Positions 5,333 through 42,446 of a stretch of DNA of 46,511 nt are shown here, piece by piece. Numbering within the stretch: the first letter of the stretch is position 1; every line of letters starts with the position of its first letter. The notes under the pieces were generated by a model, which was given only the letters and a program-made list of their open reading frames with translations, did not search any database and was not told the origin of the DNA. This DNA comes from Candidatus Gastranaerophilales bacterium (GTDB lineage Bacteria; Cyanobacteriota; Vampirovibrionia; Gastranaerophilales; Gastranaerophilaceae). Where the stretch lies: positions 1 through 46,511 of the forward strand of contig CALVBT010000011.1 in assembly GCA_944325885.1 (NCBI GenBank). The letters run 5' to 3'. The position numbers and the translations under genes are program-made.

Positions 5333-5953
5333 ATGAGCAAAAATATCCCTGAAAAAGTATCAAACAGACTGACTCTATACCACAGCATTATGGTGGAATA
5401 CATAGAAGAAGGCATAGAAACAATCTCCAGCCCGCAGATTGCACAAAGGCTGGGCATTGACGACTCTCAGGTAAGAAAAGACTTCAAACTCCTGAACAAT
5501 GCAGGAAAATGCAGGGTCGGCTATCTCGTAAAAGACCTCAAAGATTCTATTGAAAAAACTCTCGGGTTTGCAAAAACAAAAGATGCTTTTATTGTGGGTG
5601 CAGGCCACCTAGGGCTTGCTCTGGCAAAATATGACAGTTTTAACAGCTACGGGCTGAATATTCTTGCTCTTTTTGACAATGACCCGCAAAAAGTTGACAT
5701 GCAGGTCAACAACAAACAAATTTTTCATATCTCAAAACTGCCGAACCTTGTGGAAAGGCTGGGCGTTGAAATAGCTATTTTGACCGTACCAAGACAATAT
5801 GCACAGGCTGTTGCTGATTTTTTAATAGACTCAAACATAAAATACATCTGGAACTTTACACCTGCGGTGCTTAAAGTTCCGCCAACAGTAAAGGTCTGGA
5901 ACGAAAATCTGATGGGCAGCTTTTTACAATTTGCCTGCAAGGACATTATTTAA
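5333..5953 (+). CDS. rex: Redox-sensing transcriptional repressor Rex
   Basis: The 206 residues are the usual Rex length. An N-terminal winged-helix DNA-binding domain (to about residue 80) includes SPQIAQRLGIDDSQVRKDF, and a Rossmann domain opens with VGAGHLGLAL, the glycine-rich NAD(H)-binding loop. Rex dimers bind operator DNA when NADH is low and release it when NADH rises, typically derepressing fermentative and hydrogenase genes. Here the gene diverges from a hydrogenase operon that carries a matching operator at 5160-5177. AGAGG precedes the ATG by 9 bases. A possible promoter has TTGATT at 5262-5267 and TATAAT at 5287-5292, with a long 19-base spacer. The stop codon is followed immediately by a dispersed repeat. 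Confidence 0.96.
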   Translation: MSKNIPEKVSNRLTLYHSIMVEYIEEGIETISSPQIAQRLGIDDSQVRKDFKLLNNAGKCRVGYLVKDLKDSIEKTLGFAKTKDAFIVGAGHLGLALAKYDSFNSYGLNILALFDNDPQKVDMQVNNKQIFHISKLPNLVERLGVEIAILTVPRQYAQAVADFLIDSNIKYIWNFTPAVLKVPPTVKVWNENLMGSFLQFACKDII

Positions 5954-6078
5954 TATAGTCAACTGACTCCGACTACTTACAGAACCTGTGCATTTGACAA
6001 GTCCGACCTATTCAACAAGTCCGGCACAGGCAAAAAGTGCATGGGGTCACTTCACAAGCTACAAGCAATGCCGCCTCA
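5954..6078 (+). repeat. Intergenic repeat copy between rex and a tolC-like gene
   Basis: This nearly complete copy (about 125 bp) begins TATAGTCAACTGACTCCG right after the rex stop codon. It contains CCTGTGC (5985-5991) paired with GCACAGG (6024-6030), the doubled ACAAGTCCG block, the small hairpin AAGTG-CATGGGGT-CACTT, and the terminal ACAAGCTACAAG...GCCGCCTCA segment. It fills the space between two convergent genes. No promoter or ORF is apparent. Confidence 0.85.
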
Positions 6079-6084
6079 TACAAT

Positions 6085-11010: not shown

Positions 11011-11030
11011 TTAATTTTCCCCAGATATTT

Positions 11031-11096
11031 CATATAGTCAACTGACTCCGCCAACTCTTGTTTTTTTCACAAGCTACAAGCGAAGCCGCCGCTGAC
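11031..11096 (+). repeat. Shortened repeat copy between the acyl-CoA synthetase and emrB genes
   Basis: CATATAGTCAACTGACTCCG (core at 11037-11050) is joined almost directly to CACAAGCTACAAGCGAAGCCGCC (11071-11093). The internal AACAAGTCCGG and GGGGTCACTT blocks are missing, which shows that the two ends of the unit are kept while the middle is variable. Confidence 0.75.
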
Positions 11097-11133
11097 AATT
11101 ATAAAAACATTATAAATATATTCAAAAGATTTA

Positions 11134-26995: not shown

Positions 26996-26998
26996 TAT

Positions 26999-27200
26999 TT
27001 CATATAGTCAACTGACTCCGACCACTTATTGAACCTGTGCATTTGACAAGTCCATTTTGTTCAATAAGTCCGGCACAGGCAACAAGCGGAATCAGACGGG
27101 GCCTTGCCCCATGCGTAGTCCCACGTTCAGGGGGACGAAGCGTCTGATTTCAAGACAGTCCAAGGGGTCATTTTACAAGCTACAAGCGATACAGCCTCAG
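26999..27200 (+). repeat. Repeat copy with inserted 60-nt module, downstream of secY
   Basis: The copy starts CATATAGTCAACTGACTCCG. Complementary blocks then appear in interleaved order: CTTATTGAA (27025-27033), CCTGTGC (27034-27040), TTCAATAAG (27060-27068), GCACAGG (27073-27079). A 60-nt foldable module sits at 27090-27149, followed by GGGGTCATTTTACAAGCTACAAGCG and a CAGCCTCA end. An open frame runs through the second half of the repeat into the next gene. Confidence 0.85.
27090..27149 (+). ncRNA. Candidate structured RNA module, copy 1
   Basis: The closing stem is AATCAGAC / GTCTGATT, extendable by one pair. Inside are a hairpin GGGGC-CTT-GCCCC and a second hairpin with stem GTCCC (27118-27122) / GGGAC (27132-27136) and loop ACGTTCAG. 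The copy at 36173-36232 has the same length, closing stem, first hairpin and loop, but a wholly different second stem that still pairs. I do not recognise an RNA family. Whether it is transcribed is unknown. Confidence 0.55.
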
Positions 27201-27221
27201 GCACTATCTAAAACAAAAACA

Positions 27222-28967
27222 ATGATTGTCCACCCTATAACAACGAATTTTAATATACAAAAAAACTCCTCAATAGCACAAATCGCTCCTTCGAGATATT
27301 GTGCCTTCAAGTCTGTTCAAACATCAACCACAGGCGATTCTATAAAACTCTCCTCTTATCAACACAAATACGATATTGATTCCGCTTACAAAGATATTCA
27401 ACAAAAGCTCGAGGTAGTTTCCGGCAAAGACATTGAAAATTTAATAACAAAAATCAACAAAAATTTTCCCGACCTCAATAATGACGAAATCCTGACTATT
27501 ATGGACACACTGTCTGACTATAGCAGCTACGGGTCGATGAATAATATTGCAAAAAATTTGTACAACAACGATTTTTTAGGTGTCTACGACTTTGCACAGG
27601 AACTCAGCTACAAAACAATACGAATCAACACAAACACACCGAATGAACAAAATACCAACAACAGAACTCTAAAAATCCCCTCAAAACACCCTACACAGAC
27701 AATAACACAGGTACCAAAAGGTCTGGGTGTGCCGCTCGGGACGATTCTGGATTATTTGACCTTCGGCAAATATATAATGGATTTTAAAAGCAGAAAACTC
27801 GCACTTATTTTAGATGAAAACTCTATAAAACTGCTTCAAAATACAAAAAAAGCTTCGCCTGATTATTTCAAAACAGAATTCCTGAACAATGACACTTTTG
27901 TGCCTGTTTACATTGATAATTTTGAAAACTCCTACAATTTCTTAAATCAAGGAAAAACTTTTGAACAAGCAGCAATCTCTTTTATAAAAAAATATAAAAA
28001 CCTGAAAAGCAAAAACCCGAACCTGCCTCAGGAAAAAATTATTGATATAATTTTGAATTACAAAAACCTAAAAAATATTAAAGAACTGGGATTTTCTCCT
28101 CTAAGAATAAAGCCGCAAAAGCAGGAACCCCCAACGCCGGAAACAATCGCAAACAAACTTAACCCGCTCTTACCGGACAGAGAAACTTTTGAAAAAACCA
28201 TTAACAGCATAGCCAAAGACTCTAACCTTGAACAGGAGAAAACAAAGCAGCTTATATTCGGGTATCTCGATAAAAACCTTGCAATATATTCGCCTCACAC
28301 TTTGAGCAAAAAACTTATCGAACTGCATAAAAAAATTGTAAAATCAGCCGAAGAAAAAGGCTATCCCTCAAAAAACATTTACTATACGGTTCTTCATCCG
28401 AACAAGAGTTTCGGGCTTATTGCATACCAGTTTCAAAAAGCCAACAAAATTCCGGACGACAATATCATTTACTGGATAGGCTCCTGTCATCAGCCGAACA
28501 TAAACTTTGACCCGCCGGAAAAATCCACTATAGTAATCCTCGATGACTGTTTTATTTCCGGAAATACTGTAATGTATGAGATGCTAAACTATCAGCAGGA
28601 GGCTTTTTTCCTTAATGCAAACAAAAAAGATACAAACCTGATTTTTGCCTCTGTATTAGGGACAAATACAGCAAAAACAAGACTCGAAAACAATATAAAA
28701 CATGCAAAAAGAGAACAATTTGATACTGTAATAAACATTGACACAAAAAATACAAACTGGTCTGACAATATAAAAAAGCAAAGCGGTCTTTTTGATTTTT
28801 TGAAAATACTAAGAAAAGACACCCATCTTCTTGCGACAACAGCAGTTGTATTTCCGTATATGGGCAGCGATACAAACGCCCCGGGGCTGCGTAATTTTTT
28901 TAAACTCTTTGTCCCGAACCCGAACTACCTGCACAAGGAAGTATCAAAAGATGACTTTTTCGCATAA
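27222..28967 (+). CDS. Protein with phosphoribosyltransferase-like motif inserted in the ribosomal cluster
   Basis: From the ATG at 27222 the product has about 581 residues. The frame is open back to an ATG at 27057, but those 55 codons come from the dispersed repeat and are not counted; neither start has a clear ribosome site. Most of the protein is lysine/asparagine-rich and helical without a recognisable domain. Near residues 435-450 STIVILDDCFISGNTV closely matches the PRPP-binding loop of type I phosphoribosyltransferases (hydrophobic strand, DD, then T/S-G-x-T), preceded by a plausible core strand region. Substrate and activity are unknown. It lies between secY and infA, flanked by a repeat and by terminator-like hairpins, and reads like an insertion. 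Confidence 0.7.
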   Translation: MIVHPITTNFNIQKNSSIAQIAPSRYCAFKSVQTSTTGDSIKLSSYQHKYDIDSAYKDIQQKLEVVSGKDIENLITKINKNFPDLNNDEILTIMDTLSDYSSYGSMNNIAKNLYNNDFLGVYDFAQELSYKTIRINTNTPNEQNTNNRTLKIPSKHPTQTITQVPKGLGVPLGTILDYLTFGKYIMDFKSRKLALILDENSIKLLQNTKKASPDYFKTEFLNNDTFVPVYIDNFENSYNFLNQGKTFEQAAISFIKKYKNLKSKNPNLPQEKIIDIILNYKNLKNIKELGFSPLRIKPQKQEPPTPETIANKLNPLLPDRETFEKTINSIAKDSNLEQEKTKQLIFGYLDKNLAIYSPHTLSKKLIELHKKIVKSAEEKGYPSKNIYYTVLHPNKSFGLIAYQFQKANKIPDDNIIYWIGSCHQPNINFDPPEKSTIVILDDCFISGNTVMYEMLNYQQEAFFLNANKKDTNLIFASVLGTNTAKTRLENNIKHAKREQFDTVINIDTKNTNWSDNIKKQSGLFDFLKILRKDTHLLATTAVVFPYMGSDTNAPGLRNFFKLFVPNPNYLHKEVSKDDFFA

Positions 28968-35416: not shown

Positions 35417-36091
35417 ATGATTAAACAAATAGGCGGATATGCAGTACCTTTTGTAAGGACAATAAACGGAAGAAAATTCAGAGTAACACCAGTGATAGAA
35501 GAACTTTCTTCTGATATTGAGCCAAAAACAAGAGAACGCATAAAAAACGTTTTGCAAAAAATCCAGCACGATTCTTTTGTTATAAAAGGGGTTTATGAAA
35601 AGAAAATGCAAAACGGCGACGTTGCCATTATGATAAACAGGGACCCGTACAATGTTTTTAAAAGAACGGGTAGCATAGACAAACTTATGCTGTTTAAAAA
35701 AGACGGAACAATAAAAGTAAAAGACTCAAGCAAAATGCCTCAAAGGCTTCCGGAAGGCGAAGTAAACGTATACAGCGCAACAAAAAGAATACTCCAAGAC
35801 GGTATGGCAGTATTTAAAGAAAGCATCACAAAGGTGTTTTCTACCCCTGACAACAAGCTGAGAAATCTGGAACAAAACATCTACACTCCAAATACTCTCT
35901 ACCGCTATCAGATAGGGGATGATTCTTTTATCAGCAGGACATTTTCCGAAGGATACGGGCATCTGGGCGACCCGACGATAGCTTCACGTGTGAAAAAGCT
36001 CGTGTTTAAAGATTCTCAAGGCAGATGGAAGACCGAATACTCTCAGGTGCAAAACGGAAACTTTTTAACACAATACGACAATTTTATATAG
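35417..36091 (+). CDS. Protein of unknown function ending inside a dispersed repeat
   Basis: I do not recognise this 224-residue protein. It has no signal peptide or membrane span, is basic, and mixes strands and helices (YAVPFVRTINGRKFRVTPVIEEL; KMQNGDVAIMINRDPYNVF; NTLYRYQIGDDSFISRTF). TTTAGGAGAAAAA is a strong ribosome site, so it is probably expressed. The TAG stop codon (36089-36091) is part of the repeat's ATATAGTCAACTGAC start, so the repeat may have trimmed or defined its C terminus. Confidence 0.7.
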   Translation: MIKQIGGYAVPFVRTINGRKFRVTPVIEELSSDIEPKTRERIKNVLQKIQHDSFVIKGVYEKKMQNGDVAIMINRDPYNVFKRTGSIDKLMLFKKDGTIKVKDSSKMPQRLPEGEVNVYSATKRILQDGMAVFKESITKVFSTPDNKLRNLEQNIYTPNTLYRYQIGDDSFISRTFSEGYGHLGDPTIASRVKKLVFKDSQGRWKTEYSQVQNGNFLTQYDNFI

Positions 36092-36257
36092 TCAACTGAC
36101 TCAGGCTGCTTGTAGAACCTGCGCAATCGGCAAGTCCGTTTTGTTCAACAAGTCCGGCACTTGCAACAGCGAAATCAGACGGGGCCTTGCCCCTTGTGAA
36201 CGGAAACGTTCAGTTTTCGTGAACGTCTGATTTCAAGACAGCTCAAGGGGTCACTTT
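36086..36257 (+). repeat. Repeat copy with 60-nt module, first of a double array
   Basis: Core GTCAACTGACTC at 36091-36102, then a CTTGTAGAA / TTCAACAAG pair with one mismatch and a degenerate CCTGCGC block. The 60-nt module follows at 36173-36232, then CAAGGGGTCACTTTCG. A 190-bp foldback module joins directly at its end. Confidence 0.8.
36173..36232 (+). ncRNA. Candidate structured RNA module, copy 2
   Basis: Same length and plan as 27090-27149: AATCAGAC / GTCTGATT closing stem, GGGGC-CTT-GCCCC hairpin, and a second hairpin with ACGGAAA (36200-36206) / TTTTCGT (36214-36220). The stem differs at all five shared pair positions from copy 1, yet pairs, and the ACGTTCAG loop region is unchanged. 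Known family not recognised. Confidence 0.55.
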
Positions 36258-36455
36258 CGATAGCTTTTTCTTAATTTGCATAAAAAATATGTTTACAAAA
36301 AATCCTATACGGAGCTTTTTAGAACAACTTATCGAAAAAACATCTAAGGCGAATGTGTTTGAGGCTGTTTTACAGCCGAGTTATGAGCCTTTGGTTTTCG
36401 ATTAGTTGTTTTTAAAGTGCAGTATCGAGATTTTGAGTAAACATATTTTTTTATT
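36258..36455 (+). repeat. 190-bp foldback module, copy 1
   Basis: The module lies between two repeat units. AAAAAATATGTTTAC (36282-36296) and GTAAACATATTTTTT (36437-36451) form a perfect terminal inverted repeat. Inside, AACAACTTATCGAAAA pairs with TTTTCGATTAGTTGTT (one mismatch), AAGGC with GCCTT, and GGCTGT-TT-ACAGCC is an apical hairpin. A near-identical copy lies at 42095-42292. It has the size and foldback shape of a MITE or a structured RNA gene; no transposase is present. Confidence 0.75.
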
Positions 36456-36624
36456 TAATATTGTCAACTAACTCCGACCACTTATTGAACCTGTGCATTT
36501 AACAAGTCCATTTTATTCAACAAGTCCGGCACAGGCAACAAGTGCATGGGGTCACTTCCGCATCACCCTTGCAAGCACGCACAAGACAATCCAGTCAACT
36601 GACTCCGATTATACAAACAAGACT
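36456..36624 (+). repeat. Repeat copy, second of the double array, plus extra core motif
   Basis: GTCAACTAACTCCG (36463-36476), then CTTATTGAA, CCTGTGC (36490-36496), TTCAACAAG, GCACAGG (36529-36535), AAGTG-x8-CACTT and CCGCATCACCCTTGCAAGCACGC. A further core motif GTCAACTGACTCCG follows at 36594-36607. The CACCCTTGCAAGCACGCACAAGACAATCC ending is shared only with the copy at 42391-42431. Confidence 0.85.
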
Positions 36625-41899: not shown

Positions 41900-41992
41900 A
41901 GAATATCTCCTTTGATTATTAATCACTATTATTCTATACGCAATTTAGACAAAACAAATTGCCCTGAACAACTAACCCCCAAAGATATATTT

Positions 41993-42094
41993 TATATAGT
42001 CAACTGACTCCGATTACTTTATCGACAGGTGCAAGAACAAAGTCCGATTGTATAAACAAGTCCGGCACCTTTAAAAGTCCAGGGGGTCACTTCC
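41993..42094 (+). repeat. Repeat copy, second subtype, first of a double array
   Basis: Core GTCAACTGACTCCG at 41999-42012. This subtype has AGGTGC (42027-42032) pairing with GCACCT (42065-42070), where other copies have CCTGTGC with GCACAGG, and TTTAT with ATAAA in place of CTTATTGAA with TTCAATAAG. It ends AGGGGGTCACTTCCG and runs straight into the second foldback module. Confidence 0.85.
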
Positions 42095-42292
42095 GATAGC
42101 TTTTTCTTAACTTGTATAAAAAATATGTTTACAGAAAAATCCTATACGAAGCTTTTTAGAACAACTTATCGAAAAAAACATCTAAGGCGAATGTGTTTGA
42201 GGCTGTTTCACAGCCGAGTTATGAGCCTTTGGTTTTCGATTAGTTGTTTTTAAAGTGCAGTATCGAGATTTTGAGTAAACATATTTTTTTTA
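42095..42292 (+). repeat. 190-bp foldback module, copy 2
   Basis: About 97% identical by eye to 36258-36455, with terminal inverted repeats at 42118-42132 and 42275-42289. Differences are substitutions in loops and two single-base length changes in A-runs. As in copy 1 it is sandwiched between two repeat units. No open reading frame is shared by the two copies. Confidence 0.75.
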
Positions 42293-42446
42293 TTTTATAT
42301 AGTCAACTGACTCCGACTGCTTTATCGACAGGTGCTAGCATAAAGTCCGATTGTATAAACAAGTCCGGCACCTTTAAAAGTTCAGGGGGTCACTTCCGCA
42401 GCACCCTTGCAAGCACGCACAAGACAATCCGGTCAACTGACTCCGC
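42293..42446 (+). repeat. Repeat copy, second subtype, second of a double array
   Basis: Core at 42302-42315, then TTTAT/ATAAA, AGGTGC/GCACCT, AGGGGGTCACTTCCGC, and the ending CACCCTTGCAAGCACGCACAAGACAATCC seen also at 36561-36590. A last core motif at 42432-42445 stops four bases before the stop codon of the next (minus-strand) gene. Confidence 0.85.

Follow-up and report, generated by a model that had tools for sequence, protein, structure and literature searches.

A 60-nt unit that occurs twice in a 46,511-nt contig of a Candidatus Gastranaerophilales bacterium is, with a probability of roughly 75%, a branched palindromic module with two arms, which a mobile, non-coding and non-autonomous intergenic repeat carries in some of its copies as a third arm. 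This repeat would be moved in trans and recognised by its fold. The whole 46,511-nt stretch that was analysed is called the window here. The repeat family is dispersed in one genus of the Gastranaerophilales, it is modular, and it has both insertion polymorphism and a compensated fold.

Two modules in the window

The initial annotation reported two distant copies of equal length, with a common stem, hairpin and loop but with different letters in a second hairpin, and took this for a selected RNA fold. Both copies are where it placed them, and both are 60 nt long:

27090 to 27149, + strand: Y-shaped 60-nt module, arm class A (GTCCC..GGGAC), from sequence and fold
36173 to 36232, + strand: Y-shaped 60-nt module, arm class B (CGGAA..TTTCG), from sequence and fold

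The outer stem AATCAGAC/GTCTGATT and the hairpin GGGGC-CTT-GCCCC are indeed identical in the two. The five compensated pairs are also there: pairs 29-47 to 33-43 read GTCCC/GGGAC in one copy and CGGAA/TTTCG in the other, one of them as G-U. Compared with shuffled sequences, the two folds are stable, with z values of -3.9 and -4.9, and the anchored module pattern has 0 chance matches in dinucleotide shuffles.

Other parts of the claim need qualifying. The loop ACGTTCAG is common to both window copies, and its identity extends to the window's species, where one module copy has ACGTCCAG, but no further: relatives have ACGTTGAG, AACCACGC or ACGTTAC. Module length in relatives ranges from 33 to 84 nt. 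The copies are also not just two, as the window's genome (G000; 2.17 Mb in 19 contigs) has 17 anchored modules. These fall into two near-invariant arm classes, so the two sequences compared stand for two classes. The classes differ in one contiguous block and there are no intermediates. To a large extent, the five-pair change reflects the replacement of one arm by another.

Fold and covariation

A set of 11 sixty-mers shows no variation in arm 1 or the outer stem; in arm 2, two-sided changes affect seven pairs, for 30 compensated cells against 12 in shuffles. Inside the G000 arm class there is a single compensated pair, GTCTC/GAGAC, in the copy at locus L003. In 25 distinct sequences from six genomes, arm 2 pairs in 89% of cells (61% when shuffled) and there are 62 compensated cells against 21 +/- 3, where cells count sequences and not independent events, and carry no phylogenetic correction.

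The genus as a whole has about 80 modules in seven genomes. Most of the 42 distinct ones fold into the same Y shape, and most copies have a two-arm junction of 42-66 nt within the module stem. Pair 5 of the outer stem is mismatched in 8 of these 42, so the structural constraint is not absolute. Pairing in the module is strongly conserved while its sequence changes.

Compensated changes can also arise in another way. In hairpin-templated repair, a mutation in one half of a palindrome is transferred in a single step to the other half. It is possible, although we lean against it, that the changes seen here come from such repair or from the exchange of arms, and not from selection for the fold. 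The two arm classes of G000, with their contiguous-block difference and lack of intermediates, speak for this. So does the recurrence of module arms in differing combinations among species; arm 2 of the G007 type, for example, is found within the AAATCGGCAG palindrome of G000. Against it stand the many different arm-2 stems, single-pair compensations like GTCTC/GAGAC, and the Y shape retained in most of the 42 variants. All three are explained more simply if versions that do not pair are lost.

The larger repeat

The larger repeat, in which both window modules sit, is intergenic and dispersed and measures 125-390 nt; G000 has about 97 of its 5' ends. Typical copies start with ATTTCATATAGTCAACTGACTCCG and finish with GCGAAGCCGCCTCAGACA. 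The core has two helices. P1 (TGACTCC/GGGGTCA) is nearly invariant, and P2 (CCTGTGC/GCACAGG) has compensated changes at pairs 29-79, 30-78 and 33-75. For P2 this amounts to 26 compensated cells against 5.5 shuffled, or 27 against 9.9 with copies from a second genus added. An alternative core helix, CTTRTTGAAC/GTTCAAYAAG, was rejected since it does not rise above shuffles.

Optional inserts occupy fixed points of the core, and that of the 60-nt module is between the 3' strand of P2 and the 3' strand of P1. The core is found alone, or with the module, a ~107-nt GGATTTTC..GAAAATCC insert, an CCAGGTAGGG insert or 3' inserts. The window contains these copies and remnants:

26997 to 27203, + strand: full larger repeat with module, ends ATTTCATATAGTCAACTGACTCCG / GCCTCAGGCA, between secY and the PRTase-CE gene; core-model match at 27007-27098, 76 bits
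36081 to 36257, + strand: larger repeat with module; its 5' end gives the TAG stop of ORF 35417-36091, its 3' end is atypical
5948 to 6082, + strand: larger repeat without module, between rex and the OEP gene
36453 to 36588, + strand: larger repeat without module; another 5' end at 36594 (partial tandem)
41989 to 42093, + strand: diverged larger repeat, P2 CAGGTGC/GCACCTT, 3' end atypical
42292 to 42426, + strand: diverged larger repeat; another 5' end at 42432
11027 to 11097, + strand: internally deleted larger repeat, both ends present
1 to 154, + strand: 3' part of a larger repeat, cut by the contig end
7462 to 7485, + strand: solitary 5' end of the larger repeat (remnant)

A covariance model built on the 96-nt core finds 53 copies in G000 and 53 in G001. 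Over the genomes of the genus, counts of the larger-repeat 5' end run from 0 to 156. In other genera of the family that were sampled, the model matches only 6 copies in G107 and one weak case in G104. Viral contigs gave one 18-base pattern match only, with the rest of the core absent.

The window also has a second duplicated non-coding unit of ~200 nt, at 36244-36452 and 42080-42290. Its copies are 92-99% identical, adjoin larger repeats and have inverted ends, AAAATATGTTTAC / GTAAACATATTTT. This is possibly a separate MITE.

Mobility

Insertion polymorphism shows that the larger repeat moves. At three orthologous positions one species has a copy where others have none. At the junction of rex and the OEP gene, the window has a ~135-nt copy (5948 to 6082), and the two genes nearly abut in G009, G006, G016 and G017. 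Upstream of rpsE, the repeat is present in locus L113 and absent in L111. On contig C34 of G016 there is a ~170-nt copy that G006 lacks, between flanks that are 96-97% identical; this interval is also short in G002 and G018.

The consensus ends ATTTCATATAGTCAACTGACTCCG and GCCGCCTCAGACA are, by inspection, not inverted repeats. Over 52 copies there is no clear target duplication above that of shuffled pairs, and one filled/empty site permits a reading with a 5-nt AAATA duplication. Given this lack of terminal inverted repeats and of a general target duplication, the ends of the larger repeat are uncertain by a few nt. In G000, no larger-repeat copy was seen with an ORF between matching ends. 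An autonomous copy was considered and rejected, and the orphan 3' ends are deletion remnants.

Modules outside the larger repeat

The module is not confined to the larger repeat, and in relatives it is also found on its own. G021 has 12 modules but only one detectable larger-repeat 5' end, and many of its modules stand head-to-tail in units of about 95 nt with the spacer TTTCAAGACAGCG. At loci L273, L279, L283 and L284 the sequence that follows the module on its 3' side is a different one, close to GGCGGCAACTGCGACACTAGATTAGAT in all four, so that these modules belong to a second dispersed repeat type.

Modules are also found at the 3' ends of genes, in G000 (C3:61692-61860, locus L003) and in locus L276. 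In both the in-frame reading is AKSDG..., followed by a stop. That two species share this frame suggests a C-terminal tail which the proteins tolerate. The gene that the module ends is an ABC-transporter gene in the first case (L003 1501-1560, or C3:61800-61859) and a response-regulator/HD-like gene in the second (L276 1501-1584).

It could be that the branched module is itself mobile. An enzyme of novel specificity would then recognise its shape, and the module would enter several unrelated repeat families as well as gene ends, with arms freely exchanged while the Y fold is kept. We consider this unlikely, and no empty site showed the module moving independently. A module that is an optional arm of the larger mobile repeat is the preferred reading.

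Gene context and orientation

Gene-context counts rest on a simple ORF caller. Where both neighbours were called, 34 copies lie at convergent and 14 at divergent sites, figures that have no genome-wide baseline. At co-directional sites, 19 copies are sense and 21 antisense. If there is a co-directional upstream gene, its stop codon is within -1 to 12 nt of GTCAAC in 25 of 55 copies.

These data bear on whether the module is a structured RNA element in mRNAs, such as a 3' UTR stabiliser, a processing site or a protein-binding site. Strong covariation that includes G-U pairs would fit this, as would the many copies that begin at or just past a stop codon. A sense mRNA element is made less likely, however, by the random orientation towards co-directional genes, the many copies that are antisense or between convergent genes, and the differences in presence between species. 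G-T pairs in the core are also no more common than A-C mismatches, at 15 against 38 with one constant pair excluded, a comparison that does not single out one strand. The covariance-model check against Rfam that had been proposed gave no score above a gathering threshold. An RNA element is improbable. Of the selected RNA fold in the initial annotation, conservation of the fold beyond sequence stands. A single functional RNA is not supported; the module is a part that a mobile mosaic repeat may carry or lack.

Orientation of the larger repeat in G000 follows GC skew 78:19. All copies examined on contigs C3, C7, C11 and C14 have the same orientation (17:0, 7:0, 10:0 and 6:0). This GC-skew or replichore bias is strong in G000 and was not reproduced in relatives, so that it does not establish single-strand targeting.

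Directly after the repeat copy that follows secY, at 27222-28967, the window has a gene with a PRTase-CE domain (PF24390, of a conflict-system type). This gene splits secY from the remaining ribosomal operon. Relatives, among them locus L112, lack the gene at this position, and there sequence that matches the window from 28959 onward comes directly after secY. For the SecY of the window, the named records that match best are mostly from Candidatus Gastranaerophilales.

Candidates for the mobilising enzyme

Y1 transposases of the RAYT kind are present in 8 of 23 genomes of the genus. In one of these, G013, two copies of the larger repeat flank the RAYT gene, whose product matches NF047646. This could mean that the larger repeat is the REP, or target, of these enzymes. 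Yet a separate REP hairpin of the GTAG type, TTGGGCA..TGCCCAA, lies upstream of the RAYT genes in G001, G013 and G017, other RAYT loci are not flanked by the larger repeat, and no RAYT was detected in the copy-rich genomes G000 and G011. It is very unlikely that the RAYTs are the enzymes involved. No transposase was linked to the repeat family, with RAYT as the one candidate tested.

RAYTs accompanied by such a hairpin, which reads GTAGGTTGGGCATACTTGCCCAAC or nearly so, are at L213 1437-2013, L211 around 1429 and L212 around 2317. RAYT plus own REP in Gastranaerophilales is a REPtron-like arrangement.

Proposed mechanism

The copies of the larger repeat would be moved in trans by an enzyme. 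What this enzyme recognises is most likely a folded single strand, probably of DNA, as in IS200/IS605-like and REP systems. If the enzyme recognises the fold, drift in the letters and swaps of whole arms between copies would leave the shape intact. Most surviving insertions would be those placed shortly after the 3' end of a gene, where harm is least.

Of the possible reasons for the fold, we give most weight to recognition of single-stranded DNA, then to arm exchange or hairpin repair, and least to RNA function.

Comparison with known repeats

No description of such repeats in Gastranaerophilales or Melainabacteria was found in the open-access literature, and the repeat family is apparently undescribed. 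It adds lineage-limited structured mobile repeats to the non-photosynthetic sister group of the cyanobacteria, where a 2-Mb genome can have as many as about 150 copies. Its stems covary and its arms can be exchanged, and it is also a natural data set, in which selection for a fold can be set against arm exchange and hairpin repair. Covariation by itself is no proof of a functional RNA.

Integron attC sites were dropped as a candidate: by eye there is no RYYYAAC/GTTRRRY pair, and the copies lie among core genes.

Classical MITEs and the Correia/NIME mosaic repeats are, like the family described here, short, non-coding, mosaic and mobile, as judged by insertion polymorphism. MITEs differ in their ends: neither terminal inverted repeats nor a general target duplication was found here. 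Elements of the IS200/IS605 type are moved by Y1 enzymes that act on folded single-stranded DNA ends, with a lagging-strand bias; here a strand bias is seen in G000 only, in which no Y1 RAYT was detected.

CGTC-tagged repeats are simple hairpins with loops of 4-5 nt and a terminal CGTC tag (PMC3733652). Together with the Rickettsia palindromic elements they share with our family a stem of 8-9 bp, A-T first pairs, the letters CGTC and a presence inside genes (PMC3733652). In our repeats, CGTC lies within the stem however, and the 'loop' consists of two hairpins.

REP and REPIN sequences with their RAYTs (PMC2817692, PMC3733652) are likewise palindromic, intergenic and high in copy number, and RAYTs do occur in the genus. 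The repeat described here is far longer, though, is branched and lacks the terminal GTAG tag, and the RAYTs of the genus use a different REP.

The BOX elements of pneumococci are built as boxA-(boxB)n-boxC, and their transposase is not certain (PMC3049150). They too are dispersed, strongly folded, non-autonomous and modular, with variable or tandem inner units (PMC3049150). BOX is over-represented between convergent genes (PMC3049150), to which the 34 against 14 sites counted here can be compared, again without a genome-wide baseline. The differences are that BOX belongs to another phylum, and that the module here is branched with two arms and is found outside the larger repeat too. By analogy, and with no claim of homology, the family may best be seen as a modular, structure-forming interspersed repeat, of which BOX is the closest known kind.
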